This document shows, piece after piece, positions 19,334 through 41,759 of a DNA stretch of 48,562 bases. Source of the DNA: a virus. Below the pieces are notes generated by a model. It was not told the origin of the DNA. It saw only the letters and a list, made by a program, of their open reading frames with translations, and made no database searches. A program made the translations under genes and the position numbers. The first letter of the stretch is position 1. Every line of letters starts with the position of its first letter. The stretch is taken from positions 1-48,562 of IMG/VR virus record IMGVR_UViG_3300046535_000272; one strand, given 5' to 3'.

Positions 19334-19748
19334 TTTTCACCGTCGTATAGGCTACGTATAGTTCACCCACCGTGAACATCGTCCAGAACGGAATGCCTAT
19401 CGTCGGCGCTCCACGTTCGTATCCAGCGATGATAAGCGCAAGTGCGAACTGTACCCACATGCTTGCGGAGAGTACAGAACAAACGGCGCGGATATATGGC
19501 CCGAAGGGCCTGTTAAAGATAGTTTGCCCGTTAAGTAGTAAGCCGGATATCCGCATCCAGCCTACCATAATCATAAAAAGCCCAATGAACTGTTGAGTCA
19601 TCACCAACAGTATCCACTGGAAAGCGCCAAAGCTTATTGTATCAGGGTAGGCCATTACTTCCACCCCGCCAAAGAACATAGACAAGCCCATGACCCACTC
19701 AAAGGCGCGGCCTTCTGCATAGTAATCGAATTTATTTTGCAGTCGCAC
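19326..19748 (-). CDS. Polytopic membrane protein (140 aa), possible holin
   Basis: Four hydrophobic segments: about 19-33, 43-66, 86-108 and 115-134. It lies between the spanin pair and the small anchored proteins, so a lysis role such as a holin is plausible, but it may be a superinfection-exclusion protein. No family recognised. Confidence 0.6.
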   Translation of the reverse strand: MRLQNKFDYYAEGRAFEWVMGLSMFFGGVEVMAYPDTISFGAFQWILLVMTQQFIGLFMIMVGWMRISGLLLNGQTIFNRPFGPYIRAVCSVLSASMWVQFALALIIAGYERGAPTIGIPFWTMFTVGELYVAYTTVKNA

Positions 19749-19947
19749 ATTGATCTCTATACGTTAGTTCATTTGCAAGAATACGCTTCTTGACAGTTGT
19801 CTTGGCAGTAATCGTGCCGTCGCCTTTTTCAACCACCACTGGCTGATAAACCTGACAGTACGAGTCAACCGCCTTCAGCGGCGTCGCGCAGTTACTTAGG
19901 CTCAAGCCCGCTAAGCCCAGCATCAACATCTTTATCAGACAGCGCAT
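19732..19947 (-). CDS. Outer spanin, Rz1-like lipoprotein
   Basis: 71 residues from ATG 19947. Signal peptide MRCLIKMLMLGLAGLSLSNC with an LSNC lipobox gives a lipoprotein starting at Cys20; the mature part (YCQVYQPVVV, then ILANELTYRDQC) follows the usual Rz1-type pattern of a small polar protein with Asn and a C-terminal Cys. It overlaps the upstream gene by 56 bases in another frame, the nested layout typical of Rz/Rz1 genes. With an inner spanin it fuses inner and outer membranes in the last lysis step. Confidence 0.8.
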   Translation of the reverse strand: MRCLIKMLMLGLAGLSLSNCATPLKAVDSYCQVYQPVVVEKGDGTITAKTTVKKRILANELTYRDQCATAK

Positions 19948-20119
19948 TGACCTTCTCCATAATTGCCTTCCCAGCTTGAGTCTTTGCCATAATGGCTTGA
20001 GAGACTTTCGCGATCTCCGAATCCACTCCAGCATCGAATTGCTTTTGATCCCCAACTTGTTGAATAATCGCGTTGGCGATCTTGAGAATCAAAAGCACAA
20101 TTTCAGGAATCGTGAACAC
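19892..20119 (-). CDS. Probable inner spanin-like protein
   Basis: 75 residues with an N-terminal hydrophobic segment (IPEIVLLILKIANAII) and a helical polar domain. Its 3' end overlaps the lipoprotein gene, which supports the inner partner of a spanin pair. It is short for an inner spanin, and the two anchored proteins at 18813 and 19040 are alternatives for that role. Confidence 0.6.
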   Translation of the reverse strand: MFTIPEIVLLILKIANAIIQQVGDQKQFDAGVDSEIAKVSQAIMAKTQAGKAIMEKVNALSDKDVDAGLSGLEPK

Positions 20120-20391
20120 TAGCCTGTTGCCTTAGCGTCAGCAACTGCGCTCGCCACACCAGCCGGTGCCGCCGAAGTCACTGATACTTCAACACCCTTA
20201 ATGTTCTGTGCAGAGGCAGCAATAGAGGCTGGACGATTCGCAAACCAGGACCAAACAGCCGGGCCAACTGTAGCTGCGCCACCAACCAGCCACGCCCAGG
20301 TTTCACCACTCACCCACCCCTTCGCAACAACGAATCCGCCAGCCGCTGCCGCCACCGCACGAATGATTCCAGTAACTTGTTCTTGAGTCAT
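20119..20391 (-). CDS. Holin-like membrane protein (90 aa)
   Basis: Two hydrophobic segments (IIRAVAAAAGGFVVAKGWV and WAWLVGGAATVGPAVWSWFA) close together at the N-terminus, then a polar Ala/Val-rich tail. Directly follows the endolysin-like gene. Size and topology fit a class II holin, which would open the inner membrane for the cell-wall enzyme. Confidence 0.72.
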   Translation of the reverse strand: MTQEQVTGIIRAVAAAAGGFVVAKGWVSGETWAWLVGGAATVGPAVWSWFANRPASIAASAQNIKGVEVSVTSAAPAGVASAVADAKATG

Positions 20392-20395
20392 TTAG

Positions 20396-20950
20396 TCATC
20401 CTTTGGGTTCCAAGTCTTTAAGTTGCTCGTCTACAGTTTTCACCGCTGGCTTCGCCTTCGGCGTAGTGACCGGCTTCGGTGCCGGTGTCTGTTTCGGCTT
20501 CGGTACAAGCATCTCAGTCCCGAGGACCTTCGCCTGCGCCGTCAGCCAATCTGCATCTGGTGCCGGATACTTTTGTCCAGCCTCATGCCCCGCCTGCGCC
20601 TTCAAGAAGGGGATCGCCATTGGCCCGTGCCAGAAGGCTTCATCCATCACCGTGTTCTCTGTGATCCCAGGTACACGCTCCTTCACATATGCGATATAGC
20701 TCGGCACGTTATTGTGCCCAGACCAAGTTGCAATCGCATCCGCGAACCGCTTATTCTTATACAAGGGCGACGATCGCCACAAGTCCATCTGTGCGCAAAT
20801 GCCTTGCACGTAAGTTGGAAACACCGCGATATTATTTCCTTGGCCAAGGCCGTCGTGAAGCGTGATCGTCTCGGTCGAGCCCCACTTCTTCGCAAGAGCG
20901 CTGCCCCACATCGCGCCGGGATTCTTCGTTCTGATTGAGGCCGGAACCAT
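20396..20950 (-). CDS. Probable endolysin, lysozyme/glucosaminidase-like
   Basis: 184 residues. The N-terminal RTKNPGAMWGSALAKKWGST, then FPTYVQGICAQMDLWRSSPL and WSGHNNVPSYIAYVKE match a phage family with an R-x-x-NPGAM start related to lysozyme or glucosaminidase-like muralytic proteins. The C-terminal 45 residues are a Pro/Lys/Thr-rich tail. No signal peptide, so release would need the neighbouring holin. The same family is sometimes called structural, so a virion role is possible. Confidence 0.7.
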   Translation of the reverse strand: MVPASIRTKNPGAMWGSALAKKWGSTETITLHDGLGQGNNIAVFPTYVQGICAQMDLWRSSPLYKNKRFADAIATWSGHNNVPSYIAYVKERVPGITENTVMDEAFWHGPMAIPFLKAQAGHEAGQKYPAPDADWLTAQAKVLGTEMLVPKPKQTPAPKPVTTPKAKPAVKTVDEQLKDLEPKG

Positions 20951-22119
20951 CAGTGCACCTTGAGGATTTTATTGCAGATGAAGGTTGGCTGAACGATTGA
21001 GAACGGAGTGGAGGTACCGCCCTGTGCATTACCGACAAAGGCGGCAGTTACTCCGGTCGCGGCGGCATTAACAGTAACTGTATCAAAAACAAGATTTTGT
21101 GGACCACCAAAGTATTGGATAGGTCCAGCACTAACTCCAATGTGTTGCCCGTCAGTCGTCGCCGTATGCGTATGCGTCGGATCAGTTATATTAACCGCGC
21201 CGGTCGGCGTGTATGCTGGCAGGTTCCCGCCGACCAGCGTCTTGCTTTGTACGCCAAGAACCGCGCCGAGGACCGTGCCACCAGTCAACAGTCCATTATC
21301 AACGCCGTTCATATTCGACCTGCCAGCCGACACGATCGAGCGATAGTCCGGCATCAGCGGATCGGTGCCGTTATTCCCATAAGGCGAGCCTGCCGCGATA
21401 AGCTTCGCACGATAGTCCGGCAACGCCGCTGTGCAAGCCTGACCAGTTGGATAAACGAAACCGGCTGGAGCCGCGCCACCCGCATTATAGTCCCAGCAAA
21501 CACCAGACGGGATTAACAGATCGATAAATGTCGCTGACGTAATACCAAGCGCGATCAGCGCATCGGCCGTAGTCGGCGCTGTCACCACCGGAATCATCGC
21601 TGCTGAGACAATCACGTTGCCAGCAAGCCCAGCAACCGCAATCGGCGCGCCATTCGAGTCAAACGCGAGGAACAAGTTCGCACGAGCGGACGCCACCGGC
21701 AACGTACTTTCAACCGTGTCCGCCACCGAGAACACAATCGCCCGATTAATCTGATCCTGTAACTGCTGACAGATCATCGTCAGGTAATCGAGCGCGTCTT
21801 CGATATCCTCTGGATAAGCGCCGCCCTGATTCGTCAGGTCCGTTTCTTGAACTTCCGGCAGGAACCGCTCCACTACGATATCGGTCGCGGTCGTCAGCGG
21901 TGATCCGCTCAGTGGATAAGTCACGGACCCACCGTTAGGATCACCGAGCCCGGTTACACTAAATTGCGAAGGCGCGAGCACCGTTTCATTTCCGCTCGAC
22001 CTGTCGACAAGAGTCACGACCAAGTCATCGAGCGCTGGAATCAAGAACGACCAGGGCCACGTCACCGTCGCGCTGTTGCCCTGTGCTACGACTTTAACTG
22101 ATTCAGTGGTGATGGTCAT
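20950..22119 (-). CDS. Tail fibre with phage collar-type C-terminal domain
   Basis: 389 residues from ATG 22119, whose ATGA overlaps the stop of the 1878-residue gene; an upstream start at 22167 would overlap by 52 bases. The N-terminal 140 residues (VTWPWSFLIPALDDLVVTLV, then DLTNQGGAYPEDIEDALDYL) are the attachment domain seen on podovirus tail fibres and spikes. The C-terminal part (IPSGVCWDYNAGG, PDYRAKLIAAG, DPTHTHTATTDGQH) is a tail-collar-like domain with His-rich THTH motif. It should be the main receptor-binding fibre. Confidence 0.85.
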   Translation of the reverse strand: MTITTESVKVVAQGNSATVTWPWSFLIPALDDLVVTLVDRSSGNETVLAPSQFSVTGLGDPNGGSVTYPLSGSPLTTATDIVVERFLPEVQETDLTNQGGAYPEDIEDALDYLTMICQQLQDQINRAIVFSVADTVESTLPVASARANLFLAFDSNGAPIAVAGLAGNVIVSAAMIPVVTAPTTADALIALGITSATFIDLLIPSGVCWDYNAGGAAPAGFVYPTGQACTAALPDYRAKLIAAGSPYGNNGTDPLMPDYRSIVSAGRSNMNGVDNGLLTGGTVLGAVLGVQSKTLVGGNLPAYTPTGAVNITDPTHTHTATTDGQHIGVSAGPIQYFGGPQNLVFDTVTVNAAATGVTAAFVGNAQGGTSTPFSIVQPTFICNKILKVH

Positions 22120-25100
22120 CGGTGTGCTTTCGGTTGTGATTTGCCAGTCATAACTCCGCGTGACCATTCGGCCACGGTCTTAGGGTCTTGCCTGCGATGC
22201 AGGATATCGTTCATGAATGTAAAGGTATCGATCGTTTGGTTAGTTGGCGGGAGACCCGTAAGGAAGCCAACGGCCTGGCCGACATGTCGAATAGTGTGCT
22301 GTGGGTTCGCGGCCTTCTGATCCCGAACGAGGTTCGTCATACTCGCGAGCACATCGTTAATCGGCGAGACCGATGGATCGCGGTTGTGCATCATGCTGTA
22401 GACGAGCGTGTTAACGATCGGGACAGTCCCGGCGAACTGTGCCATCAGCGCTGCTCCAATAGTGCCACCAACCGTTTTCTCGTCGGAGCCGCGAACTGCG
22501 TGATGGACCAGCGCCGGAGCCACGATCATAGCTGTGGCGAAGGCCGCGCCGATTGCAACCCGCTGGAGATTGCTGAAGCTGTCGTCATAGCCCGCAACAT
22601 CCTTCCCGGCCTCACGGAGTTTATTGTAGTTGTGATTCCAGTATCCATTATACGCGATCGTCAGCCATTTGTTAATCTCACCTCGACCGACATTCGCGCG
22701 CGAGACGAGCGACGCCGAACCATGCGCCTCGCGAACAGCCTTATCAGCAACATACACAGCATCAGCATGTTCGAGTCCATCAGCAACTGTTGCTTTGTCA
22801 TAGGCCGCTTTCCAAACTGGAGTTGCCGTCAATTGATCGAGGTATGCTACCATCGCCATCGAGTAGGTTTGATGGATCGCGCGGAGCCGCGCCGCGTCAT
22901 CGAGCAAGTTCGTGTTCATGATCTTATTCAACTCGTAACCAAAGTCTTTCGCGAGCGCCTTCTGCCGGTTTCGCATCTCGCCAGAGTTATCCATCACAAA
23001 GTCAATCGTGTTAAACATATTCGACTGACTTCCAAACAGCCGTCGAGTTGCGTCAGGCAGGAACTGACCAAGTCCGAGGTCCTTCATATTCTTTACTAGT
23101 GCTGCTGGTGCTCCAATGAAAGACATTCCGGCCCGGCCAGTCGTATCAAGATCCATTTTCCCGAGTTCGTACAGAGATGAGGCTCCGGCCGAACCGCCGT
23201 GAATCAGTGCGGTTGACACCTTCCAGCCCATCAGCTGCGCGACCACGTTCTGTCGCACGTTCCGGCTGAGCCAGGCCACTGTATCGTCATGGAAGCCTAC
23301 GTCCGAGCCGCCGTTATTCGCGATATCCCTAATCCACTTATCAAGCATACTCACATATTCAGGACCGAACGCCTTATAAACTCCCTCACGGATCGCCGGG
23401 TCCGCCAGGACCTTGTTCGCATTTATCACCGGGTCTTGCATAAAGACCGCGTGAGCCGTCTGCGACAAGCGCGAATGAATCTGCGAGATCGTCAGATCGA
23501 CAGGGTAAATCTTCCCGGTCCGCTGTTTCAGCGCGTTAGCCGTCGGCAGCGGATCGAACTTCGTTTTCTCAAAGAGGTCCGTTTCGACCTGCTGGCCAAG
23601 CAACTTCGCACGAGGGTCTTCGATCAGTGGGTAGTAGCCGCCCTTCATTCCATTCCAAGGAGTGCCTTCGATCAGCGGCACCGCGACACCAGCCCTCGAC
23701 GACGTGGCTTTCTCAACGAGCGGGGCCAACGGCTCGAACAGCCCATGAATACCATCGACGACGGCCTTGTCCATCGAGGTCAACTCGCGCGACAGATAGG
23801 ATTCAACCTCGGCCTCAGTCCAATGATACCCTTCCAGCATCACGCGCCGGTTGCTCTTATTCCCGTAGTTCAGCGCGATCGCAATCTTGTTCTCATTCGT
23901 CAGCTTTTTCGGCTTGCCGGTTTCCCAATCAAGCAGTTCGTTATTCGTTGTCAAGTCATTCAGCGCCTTACCCCAAGCCCGATCGCCTGGAAGCTCCCCG
24001 GCCATCTTTGCCAGCTTTGTAATCATATCGCCCTTGGCCTGTTCGCCCTCAAGCAGCCCGCGGAGCACGGTTGAGTTCATCGCACCGAGCGGGTCTTTCT
24101 TATCGATCCAGTCGATCAGCTTTTCGGCTTTCAGCAATCGAGAGTCGACTTCGCGGCCAAGCTTTCGCAAGGCCGAAATCGCGCCCTTCGCCTCCGGATT
24201 AAAGTTATTCTTTTCGAGCCCGTCAAGATTCTTCGCAACCTTATCAATCACTTCATTGAAGGCCTCTTTCTTCCCGTGCAGTTCAATCTCTTTCGCCGCG
24301 CGCCCGTTCTTATCCATCGACTGGATCATCGTCGCGAAGTCACGATATTGATTTACAGTGAACGAGTCAATTGGCCGCGCATTCGTTCCAGGCCGCGGTG
24401 TCGGCAAAGTCGCCTCCACCATCAAATCACCCTGTTTATTCCGGTGATCGATGAAGTTGGAAAGTGAGTTCGGCCGCCCATCCGGCAGCGGATTTTGCAA
24501 GTTATAATCAGTATTTTCTTGCGTCCTCCGCGTGTCAATTCCATACGTCTGAAGCTGCCGATGAATCTGATCAGTGTATCTTTGATCGACCTTATCCAGC
24601 GCCACGTCGCTCGCGTATTTATCGAACAGTTTCTCGGCCCGCGCCTGATCCTTCTCGAAGGCCTTCGCCTCGCGCGCGAGCAGGAACGACAGCATCTGCC
24701 TCTGTTTCTGCACAAACGCCTCAGTCACATCGCCTTTTAAGAAGGCCTTCTCAGCCTCGCGGCCACCTTTCTCTGAGGCCCGCCGCCAGCCTTCATACGA
24801 GACTTCGCTTGCGAGGCTCCGGTCGAACTGGTCCTTGGCCCAGGACTCGAGTTCGGTGCGTGACAGCGGCGGCTCCTTGCCCTGAGCCTCAGCCAGCATC
24901 CGCCACTCGGTCGCGAGAATATCCACATTATGATGCGCGAGCGCTTCTTCACTCGCCTCGATCGCGATATTATCAGCCAGGTTCCCGTGCACCGCCTCCA
25001 TCTGCCGCGCCGTTTCAGCATCGACGTGCGCTTGAAATTGAGCCTTCGGCCCTTTCCCGGTATCAGCACGTTCTTGCTCCAGTCGCAGCACCGCCATCGT

Positions 25101-27752: not shown

Positions 27753-29899
27753 TACGGCTTCCTTCTATAGTTACCGTTCGGATCAGTGAAAATATCACCG
27801 GACTTCAGGTTGTCGAAGTCTTTGTAAGTGAACTGGAAGCCCCGCTTCGATTCCCCGGTGAACGGGATGAATGGAATACCTGGGTCGAGCACGGTTTCCT
27901 TCAGCAGGCTCTGTCCAATATCAGTGATTTCTTTCGGATAAAGCTTCCGCTTCTTATCCGCCATCTCAGCATTCATCGCCGCCTCGAAGGAGCCGCGGAA
28001 TTGAATGTACTGATCGCGCTTCAACTTGTCAGTCGCGGAATCCGAAATTCCAGCATCGTTCAGGAACGGATGCATAGACTTCATCGCGCCGTCGACAGCG
28101 GTGCCCCGCTTCACAAGCTCCGCGCGATCCTGTTGTTTGATCGTCAGCTGTTGCTTCTGTCCACGTGTGAGCAAAGGCTCGTTGTCGATATTTATCTCTT
28201 GATACTTGTCCGGGTCCGCCGTCGCCAGGCCCGTTAACTCCAAGTACCGTTTCGTCCCAGCATTCGTCGGCGGCACGTCAGCCGAAGCGTTCTTCCTCAT
28301 CCGCGCGTCGAATATCCCTCGGAGCCCGGCCGGTGCGCTTTCATAAGCCTGCTGCGCCGCCGCCGACAGCCCTTCAGTGCTCGAGATATTCTTCTTGTCG
28401 TCAAGCAGTTCATTCATTACGATATTTCGAGTTTGAAGCTGGAGGTCTTTCGCCTTCTGGTTCATGATCCGGTTGTCGGAGACGAGTCGGGACTGAAGCT
28501 GATCCAAGTACGCAGCCTGGTTCGCCGGATCGTTCGGGAACACCTGAACAGACCGTTCCTTTGCACGGTCCAGCGCCGTTGACAAGATTTGAGTCTGGTC
28601 AGTCGCGGGACCGGTGTCGTTATTCCACCAAGATAAACCTTGCGCGCGTCGATCTTCCAGCGCTTTAAGCGGATGCATGCTTCCATCCGCTTCTCTCACA
28701 TTAACATATTGTCCATAAAGCCGCTTTGCTTCTTCTTGATTTCCGGAACGAACGGCTTGGCCAAGTCCCTCTGATGTCCACTTTTGTCCAGCATTAAACG
28801 TCAATTCGGCCAAAGCATCCCGCTCACCTTTTGGAAGCCCCGGTGCAAAATTATCAACGATATTATACGCACTCGCAAGGTCGTTCTTTAGACGTTCAGT
28901 ATATATAGCATCACGCTGCTCCGGTGGAATATTCTCGTCACCGGGTTGAGCCTTGGTTCCATAGCCAGAAGTCATTTGTTTGTAATCCCACTGAGGATTA
29001 CCGGCGCGCGTGTCGCCTTTCGCTAACTTAGCATTTTCTAATAGTTTGAGTCGTTCAACCATCGTGCCGGTGCCGACATCGGAGATTATCTTATCCGACT
29101 GGACTCGCGTGTCCTTCTGAATAATAGCCTGATTGATAATCGGCTCCAGCTTCAGCTGAGTCACCCCATCGATCGCGTCCTTGTTCTTATTCAAAAGTTC
29201 ACGCGCACGAAGCGGATCATCTTTAGACATCGCCTGGAGCCGGGTCGCCCACGCCGTAGTAGTGAACTCCTTTTCCTGCTGTGCCTTAGTTTCATCACTC
29301 TGCCCTTTATAAGCTTCCGCCTCTTTCGTTTTCTGAAGCCCGATGCTAAGTTCCGTCTGAAACCGATCGTCATCCTTGGCATTTGCCGCGATGATCCCGA
29401 GTGAACTTGCCTTTACCGCCGTTTCCTGCTGAGTCTGATACTGTCGATTAGCAGTACGAGCAGAAGCAGCACCATCAACAATTGTATAGCCCACACGACG
29501 CTTAAAGTCATTATCGAACCGCTTAGCCACGTCATCATTCGGAGCGGCCTGGAGCGCGTCTTGTCGGACCTTTTCAATGTCCTCGTAATACTTGGGAAGC
29601 GCATTTACACGGTCAGCCCCTTGTAAAGAATCGAAGTCAAGTTTAAGCTGACCGAGCTTCACGGTCGAGTCGACGAACAAGTTATTGGCGGAGGCAGTAT
29701 TCACCTCGTCTTGCATCTTCAGCGCGTGCTTCGCAAGCACGTCACCAAACTGCCCGATCTCGTTTCCGAGGTTCTGCTCCGCGCGCCCGATCCCCGCGCC
29801 GAAAGCATCGGGAGTGGCACCGGCGGCGTTCTGGTATGGCAGGCCAGAGTTCGAAGTCGGACTAACCGACGGAACTACGGCTGAGGGCACTACCGGCAT
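27752..29899 (-). CDS. Internal virion protein with lysozyme-like (GH24-type) domain
   Basis: 715 residues, in the place of T7 gp15. Around residues 295-420 a phage-lysozyme pattern appears: TSGYGTKAQPGDEN, then ALAELTFNAGQKWTSEGLGQ and ALEDRRAQGLSWW. In GH24 the catalytic Glu sits nine residues before the Asp and 15 before the Thr of the TxGYG motif; here the equivalents read Asp-x8-Asp-x5-Ser, so activity is uncertain. The flanking regions are long helices. It probably travels inside the head and helps cut peptidoglycan at DNA entry. Its stop overlaps the start of the giant protein. Confidence 0.82.
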   Translation of the reverse strand: MPVVPSAVVPSVSPTSNSGLPYQNAAGATPDAFGAGIGRAEQNLGNEIGQFGDVLAKHALKMQDEVNTASANNLFVDSTVKLGQLKLDFDSLQGADRVNALPKYYEDIEKVRQDALQAAPNDDVAKRFDNDFKRRVGYTIVDGAASARTANRQYQTQQETAVKASSLGIIAANAKDDDRFQTELSIGLQKTKEAEAYKGQSDETKAQQEKEFTTTAWATRLQAMSKDDPLRARELLNKNKDAIDGVTQLKLEPIINQAIIQKDTRVQSDKIISDVGTGTMVERLKLLENAKLAKGDTRAGNPQWDYKQMTSGYGTKAQPGDENIPPEQRDAIYTERLKNDLASAYNIVDNFAPGLPKGERDALAELTFNAGQKWTSEGLGQAVRSGNQEEAKRLYGQYVNVREADGSMHPLKALEDRRAQGLSWWNNDTGPATDQTQILSTALDRAKERSVQVFPNDPANQAAYLDQLQSRLVSDNRIMNQKAKDLQLQTRNIVMNELLDDKKNISSTEGLSAAAQQAYESAPAGLRGIFDARMRKNASADVPPTNAGTKRYLELTGLATADPDKYQEINIDNEPLLTRGQKQQLTIKQQDRAELVKRGTAVDGAMKSMHPFLNDAGISDSATDKLKRDQYIQFRGSFEAAMNAEMADKKRKLYPKEITDIGQSLLKETVLDPGIPFIPFTGESKRGFQFTYKDFDNLKSGDIFTDPNGNYRRKP

Positions 29900-30432
29900 T
29901 AGACAATACCTTTATTCGAGTACGAGGCCCACTTGTCAGAAAAGCTGGAGGCACCGCCGAGCAGACTGGAGGCCACGTTAAAGCTTCCAGCAGTCTCGGC
30001 GTTAGAGGCCGCGGCCGTGTCGAGACCAGACTCCGCCGTGAAGTTCGAGGCCTGGGCTTTAAAGCCCGCACTTTGCTTCATCGCGTTGTGTAGGATCGTG
30101 AGCGTATCCAGGTGCCCGATATCTTGCGCGGACTGCCGCACGTTAACGGCGGTGCCAGACCCCACATCGAGTCCACTCGATGCTTGTGTCACCAGCTGCG
30201 TAGCAACAAGGTTCTTCGTCTTGAGATCGTTTGTCTCACCTTGAACCGCGCCGGTCCGCGTCGCCTCATCCGCATTGCGCTTCGCAATGATAGCATTGTT
30301 CGCGGCGACCTGCGCCTTATACCGATCGGCCGCAGCCTCAGCATCAGCCGATTGGCTCGCGCCAGCTGCACCAAGAATGCCCTTACCAACTGAGGCTGCG
30401 AGGCCACCGATCGCCAGTGCTTCAATGCCCAC
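29899..30432 (-). CDS. Internal virion protein, T7 gp14-like
   Basis: 177 residues. The start GIEALAIGGLAASVGKGILG and the segment AAADRYKAQVAANNAIIAKR, then SSGLDVGSGTAVNVRQSAQD are typical of the gp14-like family, which forms the outer part of the ejection channel. One glycine-rich hydrophobic stretch at the N-terminus could insert into membrane. Overlaps the upstream gene by 11 bases. Confidence 0.85.
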   Translation of the reverse strand: MGIEALAIGGLAASVGKGILGAAGASQSADAEAAADRYKAQVAANNAIIAKRNADEATRTGAVQGETNDLKTKNLVATQLVTQASSGLDVGSGTAVNVRQSAQDIGHLDTLTILHNAMKQSAGFKAQASNFTAESGLDTAAASNAETAGSFNVASSLLGGASSFSDKWASYSNKGIV

Positions 30433-33420: not shown

Positions 33421-34203
33421 TCAGATCACCCCGAACAGCGGGCCGAGCGGAGCACAATAACCGATACCGACTCCATAAAAATTGGCCGAGTCCTCGCGAA
33501 TTGTAATCCAGTCCGGCATGTTGTCGATTACCGTTAGCCCCTCGTTTCCATCAGAGGCGCGCGCCTGAGTTATGATCGCGTTAGCCTGAGCGAACTTTAA
33601 ATTCGCCATCGCCGTCTGGCCAGTCAACGCAAGCACAAGCTTCGCGGCCAAGGCCTGAACCAGAGCCTCGACAAACTGCGCACCGAACAGACTCGGATCA
33701 ATGATCCGCTTTGTATAGATACCAATCGCCTGATACTGATTCGTCAGAATCACATTCTTTTGCTGCCCATTCGTGTCCTCATCAGTTGAGACTCGGAACG
33801 GTGAGCCGGGACCGACGAAGTATGGATACCCATTCGAGCCTCCGGTTGTGAATGGAGTCCCGACATACGTGTTCTGAATCTGCTGCACGATCCGCGACAT
33901 CTGAATACAGTCGCTTGGATACGCATACTCATAAAGCCAGGGCGGTGACGGGAAGGCAGTCGACCACTGGCTCGCGGTCGAAGCTGCATTCGAGGGTGTA
34001 CCCGGCGCGGACTTCAACAGCGCAAGGAAATCCGTTTTTTGCGCGAAGTTCCAATACGCCATTTGCAGGACTTCATCCCGCGTGTCCTGATAAATCAGGT
34101 TGCAATTCCGCGCCTCGACTGAGGTCTCCGTCAGCGACGCAATCGTAGTCCGGGTGCCAATTGACTGCAAGGCCCGATTGCAAATAGTTACCTCGGAGGG
34201 CAT
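33421..34203 (-). CDS. Tail adaptor (tail tubular protein A-like)
   Basis: 260 residues: EVTICNRALQSIGTRTTIAS, then ARNCNLIYQDTRDEVLQMAY and WNFA form the opening shared by gp11-like adaptors that attach the nozzle to the portal. Stop directly precedes the nozzle start. Confidence 0.9.
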   Translation of the reverse strand: MPSEVTICNRALQSIGTRTTIASLTETSVEARNCNLIYQDTRDEVLQMAYWNFAQKTDFLALLKSAPGTPSNAASTASQWSTAFPSPPWLYEYAYPSDCIQMSRIVQQIQNTYVGTPFTTGGSNGYPYFVGPGSPFRVSTDEDTNGQQKNVILTNQYQAIGIYTKRIIDPSLFGAQFVEALVQALAAKLVLALTGQTAMANLKFAQANAIITQARASDGNEGLTVIDNMPDWITIREDSANFYGVGIGYCAPLGPLFGVI

Positions 34204-34205
34204 TT

Positions 34206-35036
34206 CTACCTCACATCATTCATCATGGCGGCCTGGCAGAATGTCGAAGTACGGCACGAGTACGATAAAATATCGACGGCCCCGGCGGTCGTTGTCAGTG
34301 TTGGCGTTGTACCACCAGCGAACTTAAACACGCTACTCCAGACCGTAGTCCGCGATCCGGTCCCGTCCTGAATAAACGTGATCGACCCAGCCTTACCTAC
34401 CGTGACATTCGAGAGCGTCATAGTGGTGATATTGCCGGTCAGCGTAACCACGGTATTCTTAAACGTCGAGAAGTCAAACGTGGTCGTGGTGCCGTAAGTC
34501 GTTGTAGTTTCAGTCTGCCAAAGTGTGCCAGATTGAACGAACTTATCGGTGGTGCCTGCGAGGAAGTTCGCGTCCGTTGCAATCGGAACGTCAGTTGGAT
34601 TTGCGGAGCCGCCGGTTATGTTGGCCTTGACGGTGCGGCCCGCCATCTGGGCGAGCTTCGCGTTCGTGACTGCATTATTCGTGATATTCAGGACGAGCGA
34701 AGCGCCGGTGCTTGTCACGTCGCCAGTGAATACTGGAGTGTTATCGGCCGGGAGCAAGGTCACGCATCCTGGCGGTAGCCCCACGCCAGTACCGACGAGC
34801 AAGACATTCAACGCGCAAGGCGTTGTGAAACCGCCACCGGAACCGGCGCAGGGCGACGCGACCCAGGTTCCGCCTGAGGACGTAAGACAGTTACCGTTGA
34901 TCCCGGCTGGGACTCCAGCGAAGCCCACAACACCTTGGCCTCGGCCAATCGGCACTGAGCCAGATGGCACCTGCCACTGTGCTTCGGCGACAGCCGGGCT
35001 TAACGCCAATGCAAGTGCGAGAAGTAGCCTTTTCAT
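34206..35036 (-). CDS. Exported fibre-like protein with Sec signal peptide
   Basis: 276 residues from ATG 35036, overlapping the upstream stop as ATGA (an in-frame ATG at 35048 is less well placed). Signal peptide MKRLLLALALALSPAVAEA followed by Gln gives a clear AEA|Q signal peptidase site. The middle segment ITNNAVTNAKLAQMAGRTVK is a repeat type known from phage tail fibres, and the C-terminal half is beta-rich with GTGSRTTVWS and CRTSTFCQA. A fibre-type virion protein with a secretion signal is unexpected, since tails assemble in the cytoplasm. One of seven such proteins in this block. Confidence 0.82.
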   Translation of the reverse strand: MKRLLLALALALSPAVAEAQWQVPSGSVPIGRGQGVVGFAGVPAGINGNCLTSSGGTWVASPCAGSGGGFTTPCALNVLLVGTGVGLPPGCVTLLPADNTPVFTGDVTSTGASLVLNITNNAVTNAKLAQMAGRTVKANITGGSANPTDVPIATDANFLAGTTDKFVQSGTLWQTETTTTYGTTTTFDFSTFKNTVVTLTGNITTMTLSNVTVGKAGSITFIQDGTGSRTTVWSSVFKFAGGTTPTLTTTAGAVDILSYSCRTSTFCQAAMMNDVR

Positions 35037-35440
35037 ATTGTATCCCATCCTGACAGATCATTGAGAGGTGAGAGAATAACTGCACCTTCGCCTTGACCAC
35101 CACTGACGATTAAAGAGCCAATTCCATCAATTCGCTGCGCTCCGAATGGGACAACAGTCATATCAAAACCGAAGTTACGATTCTTGATAATGAGATCGAA
35201 TCCGCCATAAGGCTGACGCATCCACAGACCCAAGTCCGGAAGAATCAAGTTGAACGCGGCGGCGATAGTCTGCTGGATAATTACGATTACGTCGAAGGGT
35301 ATGATTGGAACATTTCCAGCAGCTGTCACAAGTCGCTTTTGATTGAGTGGGCGATAGACCTGCCCGAAAGTTGGGCCGTAGTCTACCTTCCCATAAATGG
35401 TGAAAGAACCAGCAACAGCGCCTTGACCTGGAGTACTCAT
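35033..35440 (-). CDS. Structural protein, short fibre-tip-like (135 aa)
   Basis: Beta-rich 135-residue protein without signal peptide. The pattern of an aromatic start (FTIYGKVDYG), AAFNLILPDLGLWM, then DLIIKNRNFGFDMTVVPFG and the end SPLNDLSGW is common to small phage fibre or decoration proteins. It sits among exported proteins and could form the cytoplasmic base of that assembly. Function inferred from pattern and place. Confidence 0.7.
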   Translation of the reverse strand: MSTPGQGAVAGSFTIYGKVDYGPTFGQVYRPLNQKRLVTAAGNVPIIPFDVIVIIQQTIAAAFNLILPDLGLWMRQPYGGFDLIIKNRNFGFDMTVVPFGAQRIDGIGSLIVSGGQGEGAVILSPLNDLSGWDTI

Positions 35441-35452
35441 TTTAGTTTTTCC

Positions 35453-36310
35453 TCAAAGGTGCCATTTAGATTTAAGAACCGAATGAAAGGCTGCAACATT
35501 CGCTGGAACAGTATACGAACCCGATACGCCCCACTCACCGGCGGCCCCGCGCCAATAGTCAGGGCCAACACCAGTGACCTCAGTTCCAAAACACATCGTT
35601 CCACCAGTTATCCAATTACCTGGAGAACTACTAGTAGCGGCGGGAATGCCATCTACATAGTTTGTCATTATCCCACCTGAGTCTATTGTGAAAATAAATG
35701 TATGACCAGCTGGATAAATTGTACCTACATTAGAAACGCAGCCGACACTATTGCGAAAGAAATTAGCTGTCGTTATAGATGCACTCGCCGATACGCACCA
35801 TGAAGCAGCATTATCAAAATCAACATGACCTGGCGCGGCGTAAGAAAGAGTCCGGCCGAAAGTTCCGGAACCAGTCTCAGCCATTGTGCCAACGTACCAA
35901 CCTGTAAGTGTGTTACCAGCCCCCATTGGGAATGGGGCTGAACAACCTAGTGCGCATACATCAGTCGCAGTGATTTGAACACCAGGCAAAGAATTAAATA
36001 AGGTGGGGCTATAGACGGGCCAGTTTGTGCTACCAAACTTAACCATAGTATTTCCGCCGCCACTAATATCAGCGACAGCATGAAGTTCAAATCCGACATT
36101 AGTAACACTAGCGGGACAACTAAGGTCCCACCAGCCAAGTATATTACTAATCATTGGATACGATGCTACAGTACAGACACCTCCCGGGCGCGCTCCGCAA
36201 AAAGCGGGTAGGCAAGACTCGAGTTGAGCATAGGCGCGCGGAATAATAATAGCTGGCGCAGCAAAGCCGGTAGCTCTGAGAAGGCCCCGCCTAGTAATAA
36301 GACGGCTCAT
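35453..36310 (-). CDS. Exported LamG-like protein with twin-arginine (Tat) signal peptide
   Basis: 285 residues. The N-terminus MSRLITRRGLLRATGFAAPA, then IIIPRAYA and Gln, contains the twin-arginine motif TRRGLL, a moderately hydrophobic core and an AYA|Q cleavage site, so export in folded form by the host Tat system is predicted. The mature part is beta-rich with Cys pairs and a concanavalin/LamG-like organisation (ILGWWDLS, HVDFDNAASWCVS, TFIFTIDSGG, GEWGVSG), as found on adhesion domains. It starts at the stop of the next gene upstream. A Tat substrate in a phage structural operon is rare. Confidence 0.8.
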   Translation of the reverse strand: MSRLITRRGLLRATGFAAPAIIIPRAYAQLESCLPAFCGARPGGVCTVASYPMISNILGWWDLSCPASVTNVGFELHAVADISGGGNTMVKFGSTNWPVYSPTLFNSLPGVQITATDVCALGCSAPFPMGAGNTLTGWYVGTMAETGSGTFGRTLSYAAPGHVDFDNAASWCVSASASITTANFFRNSVGCVSNVGTIYPAGHTFIFTIDSGGIMTNYVDGIPAATSSSPGNWITGGTMCFGTEVTGVGPDYWRGAAGEWGVSGSYTVPANVAAFHSVLKSKWHL

Positions 36311-37770
36311 TACGGAACCCCAACTGCAGTCATGTAAGTGCGGAGACGGGAATATAAGTTAGCCGGATCAGGTGGCACCAATGAACCACCAAAAGTTATT
36401 GCCGCCTGTTGATTATTAAGACCGGTTGGAGTTCCACTACTGTTCGCTCCGAGAACGTACATGTTCACATTTGGAATTGCGCCTGACACATCCAGAGGAG
36501 TGAAAAAGTTACTACCATTAAAGTATGCACCTGTTGACGCAGAGCCATCACGCGAAGCAAGCCAATGCCCAATCATACTACCAATGCCACTAGTGTTTCC
36601 ACCAGCACTAGTATCATTTATGCGCGCGTAGAAGTTATTATTACCAGAAAATTTAATATTTATGAGAGCTTGATCCGCACCATTAAGCGACCCCATAGTG
36701 GTGGAATCTGGCGTATCAGTTAAATTCCACGCTGACATATGTGCTGAGTTAAGCACATACTTTGGTGATGGCGCACTAACAGGGTTAAAACCAGTATCAA
36801 TATAGACTGTCGAACCGCCAACACCAGTATAACCGCGATTAGCTGTAAATGTCGGGGACCCGTGCAGTGTGGCTGGATAACTCGTTTGGACTAGATTTAG
36901 TTGTGCTGTCGTAGTATCTTGCGTTGCGAAGATATAAAGTATATCTAGCTTCGACCAGACACCATCAGTAACAAGACCACAGATTAAATTAGTATATGCG
37001 GTTGAATGAGTTAAATCAAGCCCTGATGTTCTTCCAAGAAACGCGGCACCTTCGGTGCAACCAGCAACGACATTGCCAGTAGTCCAAACAGCAAGTGCTA
37101 TTTTAGGATTATTACTCGTCGGGCTAATCGTGGTCGTTATCGACTGATTATTACCGCGCAGCGTCTGCGATGAATGAACTCCCCAAAGAAAGGAGCCGCA
37201 AGCGGATGAAAAATCAGTATTTAAATTTGATAGTGAGGTCGAAACATTCGTTGTTCGACTTCCAGCGACAATTGCCAGCTGTTTATTATTGTACTGTATA
37301 GTGGCAGACGTCGTACCAGTAGTATTTCCGCCAGGGTCTGTAACGTAGCCAATAAGGTTATAGACCTCAATCGTTATTCCATCAATGGCTGTCGAAAACG
37401 TGGCGACAATGTTAGCTGTCGTTCCAGTCGGATTTGCAACATACCAGATTTCAGAATTACTATTCTGATTATCACCAGAAGCACGAACGCTCCTGGTCAT
37501 AGAGATGCCGCCAATAGTTACAGTATTTAGCTCGGAGGTCCCCGCTAAAGTGCTGTCACTCCAGTTAATTGTGACTACCGAAATCCGATTAGGGTTGGCT
37601 CCGCCAGTTCCCTGAGCGGTAAATGTAACAACGGTGCCAGAAACATTACTGCAAGCGTTACTGACCGGCGTCGATGAAGGCTCATCGAGCGGAAACCAAC
37701 CAGCATTAACGGCCGGTGCCGCCGGAGTAAAGGCGATTAAAGCTGCTAAGAGATATTTAAACAATCTCAT
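36310..37770 (-). CDS. Exported LamG-like protein with Sec signal peptide (486 aa)
   Basis: Signal peptide MRLFKYLLAALIAFTPAAPA then VNA|G. The mature protein is beta-rich and Thr/Ser/Asn-rich; the first half (VTINWSDSTLAGTSELNTVT) looks like an immunoglobulin-type or viral adhesin domain and the second half (YIDTGFNP, NFYARINDTSAGGN, GHWLASRDGSASTGAYFNGS) like a LamG/concanavalin domain. The gene is more A/T-rich than the capsid genes, as are its two neighbours below, suggesting exchange as a module. Likely carbohydrate binding on cells or virions. Confidence 0.8.
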   Translation of the reverse strand: MRLFKYLLAALIAFTPAAPAVNAGWFPLDEPSSTPVSNACSNVSGTVVTFTAQGTGGANPNRISVVTINWSDSTLAGTSELNTVTIGGISMTRSVRASGDNQNSNSEIWYVANPTGTTANIVATFSTAIDGITIEVYNLIGYVTDPGGNTTGTTSATIQYNNKQLAIVAGSRTTNVSTSLSNLNTDFSSACGSFLWGVHSSQTLRGNNQSITTTISPTSNNPKIALAVWTTGNVVAGCTEGAAFLGRTSGLDLTHSTAYTNLICGLVTDGVWSKLDILYIFATQDTTTAQLNLVQTSYPATLHGSPTFTANRGYTGVGGSTVYIDTGFNPVSAPSPKYVLNSAHMSAWNLTDTPDSTTMGSLNGADQALINIKFSGNNNFYARINDTSAGGNTSGIGSMIGHWLASRDGSASTGAYFNGSNFFTPLDVSGAIPNVNMYVLGANSSGTPTGLNNQQAAITFGGSLVPPDPANLYSRLRTYMTAVGVP

Positions 37771-38519
37771 AGTTGGAAGCCCCAGGCTGCGACTGACACA
37801 ACGCCACCGGAGCCGGGTGCGGCAGAGATAACTGCAATACCGGTGTTAATCGCGCTGGATGGAATGCAAGGGGTAAATATTTGTTCATTCAACCCAATAC
37901 CGCTCGCCAATGGCGCGGTCCATTGAGTAAAGTTCAACGTCCCGGTAACGGTTCCAGTTACCGTCGAGTTTGCGGTTGCGGCTGCCGTTGCGTTGGCTCT
38001 GATAGAGAAACCGCAAATATAAGTCTTAATTGAAGCGGACGCTGCAAGTGTAGCGGTTGTCGCGGCGGTCGTCCCTGTAGTAGATGCAGTAATAGGAACT
38101 GCGCCGGATGGATAACCGTTGGTTGAGTTGGCAATAATCGGCGTCATCGACGCGATGCCCTGCACCGTCGTAACAGTGGCATTTGCCGTTCCGGCCGTGC
38201 CAACCTGGTCCGAAGCAATCGCCATCGGGACGGAGGCCGATTTCGTCGTCTGGCCAAGCGCCACGATACCAGGGCTGTCAGTCGCGAGCGCCGTTCGCAG
38301 CGTCCCTGCCGTCATCACGCCGGAGCCGGTCGCTACCGCCGTATCGTTGACTCGCGACAGGTTAAAACTGTATTGACAGAAGCCGTCCGCGCCCGAGACC
38401 ATCGACATGGAGATCGTCGCGGCGGTCGCATCCTTGATCGCAAGTGGATTAGTACAGGCCGCGAATGCACTTCCCAAACTTCCGAGGGACAGTGCGATAG
38501 ATAAAAGTATCCGTTTCAT
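37767..38519 (-). CDS. Exported virion-type protein with Sec signal peptide (250 aa)
   Basis: ATG 38519; a TTG at 38534 is less likely. Signal peptide MKRILLSIALSLGSLGSAFA cleaved before Ala-Cys. The segment MTAGTLRTALATDSPGIVAL with GQTT and VPMAIASDQV is a known motif of phage structural proteins. The mature chain is very rich in Ala and Thr and has Cys pairs that could form disulfides after export. Overlaps the gene below by ATGA. Confidence 0.8.
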   Translation of the reverse strand: MKRILLSIALSLGSLGSAFAACTNPLAIKDATAATISMSMVSGADGFCQYSFNLSRVNDTAVATGSGVMTAGTLRTALATDSPGIVALGQTTKSASVPMAIASDQVGTAGTANATVTTVQGIASMTPIIANSTNGYPSGAVPITASTTGTTAATTATLAASASIKTYICGFSIRANATAAATANSTVTGTVTGTLNFTQWTAPLASGIGLNEQIFTPCIPSSAINTGIAVISAAPGSGGVVSVAAWGFQL

Positions 38520-38530
38520 CTGCGTTTTCC

Positions 38531-38698
38531 TCAAAGGAGATACATTGAATTACAGGCTTGCGAGAAATTGAGTGAATTAGTGCAGCCGCCACCACCGCCT
38601 CCAGCCCCGCCACCGCCCGCGCCGGTGATCGCGAGTTGAGCTGACGCGCTCGTCGCCACAAGCAAGAGGGCGCAAAGTGCGAGTTTAAAACTGCGCAT
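38531..38698 (-). CDS. Very small exported glycine-rich protein (55 aa)
   Basis: ATG 38698. Signal peptide MRSFKLALCALLLVATSASA cleaved before Gln; the mature 34 residues include GAGGGGAGGGGGG and two Cys. The polyglycine segment resembles a flexible linker. It overlaps the next gene upstream by 14 bases. Function unknown. Confidence 0.7.
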   Translation of the reverse strand: MRSFKLALCALLLVATSASAQLAITGAGGGGAGGGGGGCTNSLNFSQACNSMYLL

Positions 38699-39095
38699 AT
38701 GCAATGCTCCCCGGCATACCAACGGCCTGCGTCGTGACCGCGCAAAGGCTCAGTCCCGGTGGCACCACCCACACAACTCCGTTACCGGTGCCCTTCGTAA
38801 AGCCGACTTGCGCCGCGAGAACATAACTGCCGGTTATGTTAACCGAAGATACAGCACAAGTTGCGCCGGTGCCCGCGATGAACTGGATCGCTCCAGCGCC
38901 ACCGGCGATGATATCGACTGCGGTCACGTAGATACTTTGCGTACCGCGCGCCGCGATGAGGAGGGTCGTCGTCGCGGTTGAGATCGTAACCGCAATCGAC
39001 GCTTGAGTGGCCGGAATGACCGGCGACGTGTTCTGAGCGCTCACACTCGCGCTAAGAGCAAGCCATGCAAGTAACGCGAGTGTAAGACGCTTCAT
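38685..39095 (-). CDS. Exported virion-associated protein (136 aa)
   Basis: Signal peptide MKRLTLALLAWLALSASVSA cleaved before Gln. The mature part (TLLIAARGTQSIYVTAVDII, GTGATCAVSSVNITGSYVLA, LSLCAVTTQAVGMPGSIAYA) is a beta-sandwich pattern found in small phage structural or decoration proteins, with two conserved Cys likely to pair outside the cytoplasm. Confidence 0.78.
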   Translation of the reverse strand: MKRLTLALLAWLALSASVSAQNTSPVIPATQASIAVTISTATTTLLIAARGTQSIYVTAVDIIAGGAGAIQFIAGTGATCAVSSVNITGSYVLAAQVGFTKGTGNGVVWVVPPGLSLCAVTTQAVGMPGSIAYAQF

Positions 39096-39099
39096 GGTT

Positions 39100-39522
39100 T
39101 TACGCTTTCGGTGTCGGGGTGGAAGGGTGAGTTGGAGTCGGCTTCGGCTCTTCTTTCGGAGCGAGAATACCGGTCTTGGGCGGCTCCGCTGGCTTCGTAT
39201 TCACAGGCTTCGGCGGTTCCGGCTGAGGCTTATTTGCCGGGCCGCGAACTATCGGAGCGTCAGGTGCGCCGGTCAGCGGCACCGACTTGAACGGATCGCC
39301 GCCAACATCCCGGTCGCCCCACTTCTTGTCCCAGGCCTCAGTCGCTTCTTGATCAAGCGGGATCATGTTGGTCGAGGGCGGCAGTGGGTCGCCCTTCTTT
39401 CGGTTGATCTTCGGATCGTCTTTCGTCGCCCGGTAGGGCCACTGAGTATCATCACCGATAATGGTGCCCGCGTCGAGCACCTGCTCGTCGATATGGTGTG
39501 GTTCAGAAAGTCGCCATCTCAT
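39100..39522 (-). CDS. Proline-rich structural-region protein (140 aa)
   Basis: ATG 39522 with AAGGAG upstream; longer starts would run into the terminator-like hairpin. No signal peptide. The first 80 residues are polar with several Trp (RWRLSEPHHIDEQV, DDTQWPYRATKDD, EAWDKKWGDRD), the last 60 are Pro/Lys/Thr-rich and probably disordered. It may act as a linker or chaperone for the exported proteins around it; unrecognised. Confidence 0.72.
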   Translation of the reverse strand: MRWRLSEPHHIDEQVLDAGTIIGDDTQWPYRATKDDPKINRKKGDPLPPSTNMIPLDQEATEAWDKKWGDRDVGGDPFKSVPLTGAPDAPIVRGPANKPQPEPPKPVNTKPAEPPKTGILAPKEEPKPTPTHPSTPTPKA

Positions 39523-39540
39523 GTTCGTCTCCTTAAAAGT

Positions 39541-39572
39541 GGGGCAGTTGCCCCGATTGAAGTAACTGCCCC
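39541..39572 (-). terminator. Probable terminator or attenuator after the capsid genes
   Basis: On the - strand GGGGCAGTT (39572-39564) pairs with AACTGCCCC (39549-39541), a 9-bp stem, followed by ACTTTTAAG. The T run is short, so termination is likely partial. It separates capsid genes and the first exported protein from the rest of the block, which would lower expression of downstream genes relative to capsid. Confidence 0.6.
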
Positions 39573-39580
39573 AAAGTTTA

Positions 39581-40201
39581 TTATTCCTCGGTCCAGACCA
39601 GCGTACCATTCAGCACGCCAGAAGAGATTGAGATCGTATTGAAGTTTAAACATACCTGCTGGGCCACGCCACGCAAGGTGACGGGCTGAAGCAAGTTTTG
39701 CACGTTGCTGTAGTCGAACAGCAGCGGGTTGGTGACGGTCGCCGCTGCCGTGGTGCCAAGGGTCAACGAAGCGGAATCCAAGTAGGTCGGAGCCGCGTCG
39801 GTGATAGTCGGGACTGCGGTGTAAGCAATCGGCACCGCAGTCGCCGTGGCGTTGTTCGTATCCAGCTTCGAGATGTTGTTGGCCGGATTCGCTGTGGTGG
39901 AAGCAGCGGTGCCGCCCGTCGCAACAGTGGCTCGACGAACCAAGGTGATTGGAACTGTCACCAAGGTGCCGGCGGTGCCACTCAACTTGACTTGCGTAAG
40001 CTTGATCGTCTTGGTCGCGGACCCCGCGAGGCAGATAGTGTCGGTGGCCGACGCTGGAGGAACGAGGCCGATAAATCCGGCCGCGTAAGTCGTCTTGGCG
40101 ATATAACCCCAAGTGACGCCAGTCTGCGGAACGGGCTGAGCCGCCGCAGGGAGGGCTGCGATTAATGCAGCCCCCACCAAGAGTGAACGAAGATATTTCA
40201 T
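39581..40201 (-). CDS. Exported virion-type protein with Sec signal peptide (206 aa)
   Basis: Signal peptide MKYLRSLLVGAALIAALPAA then AQ. The mature chain is beta-rich and Ala/Thr-rich (IKLTQVKLSGTAGTLVTVPI, then TLVRRATVATGGT and VQNLLQPVTLRGVAQQVCLN), a pattern found in surface proteins of phage particles. It follows the Bbp16-like gene by 11 bases and precedes the hairpin at 39541-39572, so it should be made with capsid proteins. Confidence 0.8.
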   Translation of the reverse strand: MKYLRSLLVGAALIAALPAAAQPVPQTGVTWGYIAKTTYAAGFIGLVPPASATDTICLAGSATKTIKLTQVKLSGTAGTLVTVPITLVRRATVATGGTAASTTANPANNISKLDTNNATATAVPIAYTAVPTITDAAPTYLDSASLTLGTTAAATVTNPLLFDYSNVQNLLQPVTLRGVAQQVCLNFNTISISSGVLNGTLVWTEE

Positions 40202-40212
40202 GCTTGCATACC

Positions 40213-40689
40213 TCAGTTCGTGATGGTCAGGCCGGCGGGATAGATTGCCGAATCCTGACGATCAATGACGATACCTGCGACAATTGCGCCCGCAGTCATC
40301 GGCCCGGTCGCCACCGTGTAGTTCAGACGGTAGAAACGCGGGAAGGTGACGAGAAGCGAAGGATCGCGGTGCGGGACATCGATCGGAAGGAGCTTGGCTC
40401 CAACCACGAGGTCCGCGAGAGCGTAGGCACGCGAGATTGCGTAGTCTACGTAAGTACCCGGAGCGCCGGAGCCGTTGTCGGGCGCGCCCTGGAACGACAC
40501 GGTAAGCGTGCCGGCACCGGCGGCCGTGAAGGCCGTAGTAACGATACACGCCACCTTGAGCGCCGGATTATCTCCGATGCCCATATCACGCGGGTTCAGT
40601 AAGTCGATGATGTTGGTCGACGCCGCTGTGGTCGTAATCGCCTGCGGAGATGCAGGAGTAGAGAACATCAATAGTGAGTCGAGAATCAT
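40213..40689 (-). CDS. Virion structural protein, Bbp16-like
   Basis: 158 residues: MILDSLLMFSTPASPQAITT, then NIIDLLNPRDMGIGDNPALK and a beta-rich body. This opening is that of the Bbp16 family encoded just after the major capsid protein in Bordetella phage BPP-1 relatives. Probably a head decoration or stabilising protein. Confidence 0.85.
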   Translation of the reverse strand: MILDSLLMFSTPASPQAITTTAASTNIIDLLNPRDMGIGDNPALKVACIVTTAFTAAGAGTLTVSFQGAPDNGSGAPGTYVDYAISRAYALADLVVGAKLLPIDVPHRDPSLLVTFPRFYRLNYTVATGPMTAGAIVAGIVIDRQDSAIYPAGLTITN

Positions 40690-40700
40690 TTCATTGCTCC

Positions 40701-41759
40701 TTAGACGACACGAGCTTCGTTGTTGAGGATCGCGTCCACAGTACGAATCGGGACGCCGCGGAAAGTCAGAACGACCTGGCCGTCGTACTCACGTAGCTGG
40801 AGCCAGATGTTCGTCTTGTTCTCGACCTGAAGTTCGAGGTAGGTGCGCACGGTGCGGTTGACGTAGATCACCGTCTTGCCCATCGAGCCTTGCACGTTCG
40901 GCGAGTCCGAGGTCTGCACAGCGGTCGTACCAACAGCGGTGGTCGGCAGACGATTCAGTCCGCGGATCAAGCCGTTGATAATATTCGCTGCGTTAACCGT
41001 TGACAGGTCCGACACGTCGATGTTGCACAGGCGCACGTTGTAACGCCAGTCACGAACCTGAAGGCCGAGTTCCCACTTGAAGTGGTCAACCCAACCCCAG
41101 AAATACGCGCCGGTTGCGAACGTCTGGTTCACGTCCTGAATGCGCTGAAGGCCCATGTCAGTATGCTGGAGGCCGGTGATCTTGCCCTTCGGGAAGATAC
41201 CGCAGGTGGTCCGCTCGCCCCACGTCACGATCCAGATGGACGTGTTGTCGGTGCCGACACCCTGCATGTCGATCACGTTTGCGGCCGAGAGGGCCGTAGT
41301 CGTGAGGACGCTGTTGTAACGCGGCGCCAGTCCAGTGAAGCGATCCGGGTTAACTCCGGTCGAACCGTAGATCACGGTTGCGGCCATCTGCTGCGTCATG
41401 CCTTCGAGGAAGGCCATCGATTCCGAAAGCCGGAACCGGGCCTGGTCGTCGGCCAGCGCCGCCACGTCCTTGTCGATCTGGCTTTCAGCTTCCAGGTTGC
41501 CACACGTATCGACGATTGGAGCGGTCGTGGACTTCGTAGGCTGAATACCAGCATTCAGAAGTCGCCAGGTGCCGGACGGCAGTCCAGTTCGCACGATGGT
41601 CTTATTACCCGTCGGGAGATTGCCCTCCATGACGAGCATGTCCGTCATGATCTCGTTTGTCTGCGAGAGCATTTCGATAATCATCGCAATCTTGTAGTCG
41701 TCGCCGACTCGTTTTGCCCAGTCGGCGTAAGTTAGGGCGTTTGAGGCAAGCGTTGCCAT
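40701..41759 (-). CDS. Major capsid protein, Bbp17-like
   Basis: 352 residues. ALTYADWAKRVGDDYKIAMI, then IEMLSQTNEIMTDMLVMEGN and LPTGNKTIVRTGLPSGTWRL match the BPP-1 type major capsid protein. It lies directly after the scaffold gene and has a good ribosome site (AGGACACAG). Self-assembles into the HK97-fold shell. Confidence 0.93.
   Translation of the reverse strand: MATLASNALTYADWAKRVGDDYKIAMIIEMLSQTNEIMTDMLVMEGNLPTGNKTIVRTGLPSGTWRLLNAGIQPTKSTTAPIVDTCGNLEAESQIDKDVAALADDQARFRLSESMAFLEGMTQQMAATVIYGSTGVNPDRFTGLAPRYNSVLTTTALSAANVIDMQGVGTDNTSIWIVTWGERTTCGIFPKGKITGLQHTDMGLQRIQDVNQTFATGAYFWGWVDHFKWELGLQVRDWRYNVRLCNIDVSDLSTVNAANIINGLIRGLNRLPTTAVGTTAVQTSDSPNVQGSMGKTVIYVNRTVRTYLELQVENKTNIWLQLREYDGQVVLTFRGVPIRTVDAILNNEARVV

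Follow-up and report, generated by a model that had tools for sequence, protein, structure and literature searches.

The DNA analyzed here (the window) is a whole IMG/VR record of 48,562 bases and represents a BPP-1-like podovirus: a Bbp17-type capsid gene, a Bbp16 cement gene, a head-tail connector gene, and a tail-tube gene are present in the conserved order, and the late operon lies on the minus strand. The cement gene (40213-40689) and the tail-tube gene (33421-34203) enclose a block of nine genes, seven of them with export-type N-termini. A preliminary description of this DNA had recognized a set of seven exported, virion-type products; all seven reading frames are confirmed, on the minus strand within the late structural operon, with the boundaries listed below. 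It was silent on the two non-exported genes (39100-39522 and 35033-35440) that interleave with the seven. In operon order, with SP denoting the signal-peptide score and a slash the predicted cleavage site, the genes are as follows:

40701..41759, minus strand: major capsid protein, Bbp17-like (42-51% identical to BPP-1 relatives along its full length by tblastn); anchor of the survey
40213..40689, minus strand: cement protein, Bbp16 family (Pfam Bbp16, E 9.6e-22); upstream edge of the block
39581..40201, minus strand: predicted exported protein 1, 206 aa; signal peptide MKYLRSLLVGAALIAALPAAA/QPVP, SP 15.1; one Cys pair
39100..39522, minus strand: non-exported protein starting MRWRLSEPHHIDEQVL; SP -11, Cys 0; position compared with L026
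38685..39095, minus strand: predicted exported protein 2, 136 aa; signal ends VSA/QNTS, SP 10.7; family A3
38531..38698, minus strand: predicted exported protein 3, 55 aa; signal peptide, Gly-rich linker, and CTNSLNFSQAC; SP 16.1; 2 Cys in the mature part
37767..38519, minus strand: predicted exported protein 4, 250 aa; signal ends AFA/ACTN, SP 11.8; 4 Cys
36310..37770, minus strand: predicted exported protein 5, 486 aa; SP 10.9; phrog_18498, E 4e-12
35453..36310, minus strand: predicted exported protein 6, 285 aa; Tat-like TRRGLLRATG...AYA/Q (motif scan); 9 Cys
35033..35440, minus strand: non-exported small protein directly upstream of 34206-35036; SP -5.8, no Cys
34206..35036, minus strand: predicted exported protein 7, 276 aa; SP 12.6; PHROG tail fibre, E 1.5e-5 (C-terminal domain); 6 Cys
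33421..34203, minus strand: tail-tube protein in the Bbp14 position (synteny with BPP-1 and L007); downstream edge of the block
20950..22167, minus strand: candidate ordinary, non-exported tail fibre in the same operon, proposed from sequence appearance and position; no signal peptide by the matrix and no Pfam match

Several features lie outside the block. Probable lysis genes span 19732-20391 and include a holin of the Pam3 gp28 family (20119-20391) and a small protein (19732-20055), possibly an Rz1-type spanin, that bears a lipobox-like LSNC. A 1878-aa polyvalent protein with an LPD22 domain (22116-27752) adjoins a 715-aa protein with a phage lysozyme domain (27752-29899). Among the early proteins, Pfam identified a DNA polymerase A, a UvrD-type helicase, and a uracil-DNA glycosylase, and no integrase in the subset of early genes tested. 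Four seemingly unrelated early ORFs on the plus strand (stops at 1095, 2668, 3602, and 5169) have near-identical C-termini of the form L-x-[DE]-L-G-L (ESLADLGL, LDELKELGL, AELAELGL, and LDLADLGL), possibly a common binding or turnover tag. The window also holds a promoter-like repeat pair (1315-1353 and 1963-2001; 39 bases, 79% identical, TTGACA plus a TATGGTT box), and a palindrome-like ATACGAyCrTCGTA followed by CCATACCAATGACT, possibly an operator, is repeated at 289-320 and 12394-12425.

Domains of the block proteins

The 39581-40201 product belongs to the most conserved exported family of the clade (family A2, 23 sequences), and its mature part is confidently predicted as an all-beta domain (AlphaFold pLDDT 84, pTM 0.80) that matches uncharacterized proteins of uncultured Caudovirales at TM up to 0.82. 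Profile comparison found no relationship with Bbp16-type cement proteins (hhalign probability of 0.2% against the Bbp16 alignment). The mature 38685-39095 product is also confidently predicted, as a 116-aa beta-sandwich with one Cys pair (pLDDT 92). Its family weakly resembles three viral surface proteins of jelly-roll fold, namely the KHP40 cement protein (7dou), the HFTV1 turret (8qpg), and the Agrobacterium phage 7-7-1 fibre (9rkv), at TM 0.38-0.51, with no sequence relation and scores too weak for homology; these three proteins are assembled in the cytoplasm. The 37767-38519 product has relatives in other clade members (family 15).

The preliminary description had read motifs of phage fibres or LamG-type adhesins in several of the proteins. 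A tail-fibre assignment holds for two of the seven, for 34206-35036, from its PHROG match, and for the C-terminal half of 36310-37770, which has tblastn matches in Microcystis, Sinorhizobium, Mesorhizobium, and Flavobacterium phage proteins. The LamG similarity of 35453-36310 is too weak for an assignment (Laminin_G_3, E 0.009, 16.6 bits against a Pfam cut-off of 27.6), and the label "virion-type" suits several of the seven by fold and motif. The relative of 36310-37770 in Microcystis phage Mwe-JY13 (40% identity by tblastn) has neither a signal peptide nor Cys, and the N-terminus of the Mesorhizobium relative is likewise without a signal. The mature 34206-35036 product starts with (A)QWQVPxGxVPIGRGxGVxGF, common to L007, L009, and L114, and its C-terminal part differs from theirs. 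Annotated phages searched by tblastn with 35453-36310, 37767-38519, and 39581-40201 gave no match, and sequence searches of solved structures returned nothing useful.

Predicted export signals and cysteine pairs

Signal peptides were scored with a home-made cleavage-site matrix, built from 34 well-known E. coli signal peptides, together with rules for n-region charge and h-region hydropathy; most training scores fall between 12 and 28. Six of the seven products lie near this training set (matrix scores 10.7-16.1, two N-terminal positive charges, h-region hydropathy of at least 2.6) and have the basic n-region, hydrophobic core, and small residues at -3 and -1 of Sec (signal peptidase I) signals, and no other gene from 19040 to 48408 passes on score, charge, and hydropathy together. 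The seventh, 35453-36310, has a Sec score of only 0.8; it starts MSRLITRRGLLRATG...RAYAQ, a twin-arginine (Tat)-type beginning in which TRRGLL is followed by a hydrophobic core and a cleavage site. By matrix and motif scan, then, the export starts originally reported are borne out, six as clear Sec-type and one as Tat-like. The report of five A-x-A sites followed by Gln is correct for Gln in five of the seven, with A-x-A/Q in four and V-S-A/Q in 38685-39095. None of the seven has an L-x-x-C lipobox with Cys at +1 of the predicted site, and a lipoprotein identity was rejected on that ground.

These signals recur in relatives of the phage. We surveyed 169 loci with a capsid match, including the window and two annotated phages, drawn as capsid homologues from viral and genome collections; genes were called by one simple rule, with starts also set by rule, and the contigs are fragments and not independent. 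Between the cement and tail-tube genes, 121 of 650 non-redundant genes (18.6%) have predicted signal peptides, versus 13 of 1586 (0.8%) upstream of the capsid gene (Fisher p 2e-53), and shuffled N-termini pass at a rate of 0.85% (55/6500): the enrichment is not due to chance. Tat-like starts number 5 among 670 interval genes versus 1 among 1654 upstream genes. Ala occupies -3 in 72% of predicted cleavage sites and -1 in 87%, percentages subject to matrix bias. Gln occupies +1 in 67%, a figure free of that bias because the training set hardly has Gln there. Small, crudely called samples of bacterial signal peptides have Gln at +1 in 58% (a Terriglobia MAG), 58% (Reyranella), and 20% (Labrys), baselines compatible with several host groups.

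Cysteines provide an independent mark, one that makes no use of the matrix score. The preliminary description was right to point to Cys pairs: the mature products contain, in operon order, 2, 2, 2, 4, 4, 9, and 6 Cys, versus 0 in each of the two interleaved non-exported genes. Across the survey, 102 Cys-bearing exported proteins have an even number of Cys in the mature part and 8 an odd number, versus 506 even and 673 odd for upstream non-exported genes; counted by family, the even:odd ratios are 46:7 and 60:100 (Fisher p 2e-10). A set with weak signals, outside the definition of the rule, shows a parity of 39:3, and secreted genes of three bacteria have the same bias (30 even versus 6 odd). 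In the A3 alignment, one Cys pair is invariant and a second is nearly always gained or lost together; in A2, both Cys are displaced in L115, L029, and L175. Such even counts and co-varying pairs are, at the level of sequence, marks of disulfide bonds.

Many of the large exported proteins carry, directly after the cleavage site, a variant of the tail-fibre motif (...GDNSxxIATTAFV...) in which Cys replaces Ile and another Cys precedes the motif (CATRPTGDNSNACASTAFV). When the viral collection was scanned with a DNA pattern for this second-Cys form, 65 stretches were found, some of them near-duplicates or overlapping the survey. By rule, the signal peptide is strong in 46 and weak in 13 (the weak calls L273 and L305 being doubtful), and four more (L129, L265, L292, and L295) have one by eye; L283 ends at a contig edge, and L287 was discarded as a chance match in the wrong frame. 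Ordinary fibres of the GDxSxxIATTAFV type share motif, spacing, and types of C-terminal domain with the exported proteins but lack the Cys pair, and 82 of the 87 usable ORFs among the Ile-form matches listed have no signal peptide. Three of those listed have a signal peptide adjoining the motif, all in the block-bearing clade, and the other two calls lie >100 residues away from it; two stricter control patterns gave too few matches. The signal peptide almost always accompanies the Cys form and not the Cys-free form, and thus goes with the Cys form and the clade.

Distribution among relatives and known systems

Phages bearing the block form a large uncultured, mostly soil group related to BPP-1. 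The interval is complete in 93 loci; the strict rule detects one to six exported genes in 21 of these and none in the other 72, and it undercounts, several "negative" loci starting with obvious signal peptides. The export feature therefore marks part of the BPP-1-like phages: the set travels with a large uncultured clade and is missing from BPP-1, Caulobacter phage SR18, and most cultured relatives sampled. BPP-1 and its relatives (Rauchvirus and allies) share the capsid, cement, tail-tube, and portal genes of the window and their order, but BPP-1 has one short gene (bbp15) between the cement and tail-tube genes, and SR18 likewise has a single short gene there, neither interval containing an exported gene. 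In the window, 39100-39522 occupies the place of Bbp15, a correspondence of position.

Many relatives also have virion genes flanking the block, in late operon position. A recurrent order in the clade runs from the gene in the Bbp15 position to a small non-exported protein and then to a large exported fibre, with a non-exported gene of 90-160 residues preceding 23 of 39 large exported genes. In several clade members (L127, L131, L157, and L138, among others), the exported fibre is separated from the tail-tube gene by a recurrent run of four to six very small genes without export signals, which the window lacks. Between L007 and the window, the capsid and tail-tube proteins are 85% and 76% identical, and the exported genes are 49% identical, only partly alignable, or without detectable relatives; fast gene turnover is typical of host-recognition genes. 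We found no cultured members of the block-bearing clade. Genome contigs scanned with a single capsid query gave no match, and a scan with a capsid alignment gave distant prophages and one contig (L029) of an Acidobacteriota (Terriglobia-labelled) MAG, which is from a related phage encoding four or more exported proteins and may be misbinned.

Sec signals are known from other phage-encoded proteins: lambda Lom, encoded between tail spike and fibre genes, has a signal peptide (PMC12309495), and the endolysin of the BPP-1 relative UFJF_PfDIW6 has a predicted Sec signal (PMC8951688). Unlike the block, Lom and signal-peptide endolysins are single genes for a barrel or an enzyme and not a fibre-type set. 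The literature that we searched, whose coverage was incomplete so that absence is not proof, held no account of exported tail fibres in tailed phages.

Possible fates of the predicted exported proteins

Tailed phages assemble in the cytoplasm, and a secreted fibre-like set is unexpected for that reason. The preliminary description had offered three roles, namely coating of released virions, decoration or blocking of the host surface, and action in the periplasm, and these are weighed in turn. We give an even chance to the reading that the block encodes secreted, disulfide-stabilized fibre or receptor-binding proteins that are made late, complete their maturation in the periplasm, and are added to virions at lysis. 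Host Sec, and probably Tat for one protein, would carry the products out of the cytoplasm, with signal peptidase cutting at sites of the A-x-A/Q type, and the mature, beta-rich proteins would fold in the oxidizing periplasm, where their Cys residues would pair. The six Sec signals and the Tat-like one, the enrichment, the site consensus, and the parity and covariation of Cys support export and oxidative folding well, and we consider both very probable from these sequence features. At lysis, the exported proteins would meet virions assembled in the cytoplasm and dock through their conserved mature N-termini, perhaps aided by the non-exported neighbors 35033-35440 and 39100-39522; they would then form surface or tail appendages of the released particle, with the variable C-terminal parts binding the next host. 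Docking is favored by the neighborhood of virion genes, the fibre domains, the conserved N-termini and variable C-termini, and the several exported partners per phage. Counting against it, cytoplasmic assembly makes joining at lysis topologically awkward, a fibre bound to the receptors of its own dying host is wasted, and a non-exported candidate fibre (20950-22167) is already present; we place docking slightly below an even chance.

The main rival, which we regard as somewhat unlikely, is that the proteins are secreted binders of the host surface, or free receptor binders, that never enter the virion and that occupy receptors or glycans of the infected cell and of debris, so that superinfection is excluded or progeny are kept off debris. 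Export and disulfides fit such a role directly and pose no topological problem, receptor-binding-type domains are present, and Lom, among the tail genes of lambda, is a precedent for an exported phage surface protein (PMC12309495). Yet a single blocking function would hardly call for three to eight distinct exported proteins in each phage, all encoded in one late operon alongside virion genes; expression at that stage comes late for superinfection exclusion, and the seven showed no apparent outer-membrane anchor, lipobox, or barrel. Virion docking and secreted receptor blocking could also coexist.

Two further readings carry little weight. The periplasm is the first destination of the proteins and some families are small single beta domains, features that would suit effectors with a prelytic role in the envelope (with peptidoglycan or surface polysaccharide as possible targets) and not in adhesion; this is improbable given that Pfam, NCBIfam, and PHROGs contain no enzyme-domain match for any of the seven, that lysis genes lie elsewhere (holin-like 20119-20391), and that the domains resemble fibres and capsid-surface proteins. 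Alternatively, the N-termini might be uncleaved hydrophobic segments of virion proteins assembled in the cytoplasm, serving assembly or membrane penetration. The location in the structural operon agrees with this, as does the intracellular assembly of every virion protein in tailed phages known so far, but a Gln +1 consensus, basic n-regions, and even, co-varying Cys are not expected of such segments, and 29899-30432, the sole candidate internal virion protein that starts with a hydrophobic segment, is acidic in its n-region and Cys-free. Membrane anchors and hydrophobic virion N-termini, against which the preliminary description had set its export signals, are rejected on site consensus and Cys parity; Ala at -3 and -1, Gln at +1, even Cys, and clade-wide conservation point to cleavable signals, and we give uncleaved segments a very low probability.

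The standing assumption for fibre and receptor-binding modules is that they fold in the reducing cytoplasm and become part of the virion before lysis. Returning to docking at lysis, we tentatively suggest that virion maturation in this clade may be split between two compartments: the cytoplasm would produce capsid and tail, and secreted surface fibres would acquire their disulfide staples in the periplasm and be attached to the particle only once lysis has brought the two together. A signal peptide together with an even Cys count within a structural operon offers a search rule for more cases. It also cautions against the practice, in annotation pipelines and host-range prediction, of treating such genes as plain tail fibres. 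If true, a clade-wide secreted, disulfide-stapled set would amount to an extracytoplasmic second assembly stage of tailed phages or to a new class of secreted phage adhesins.
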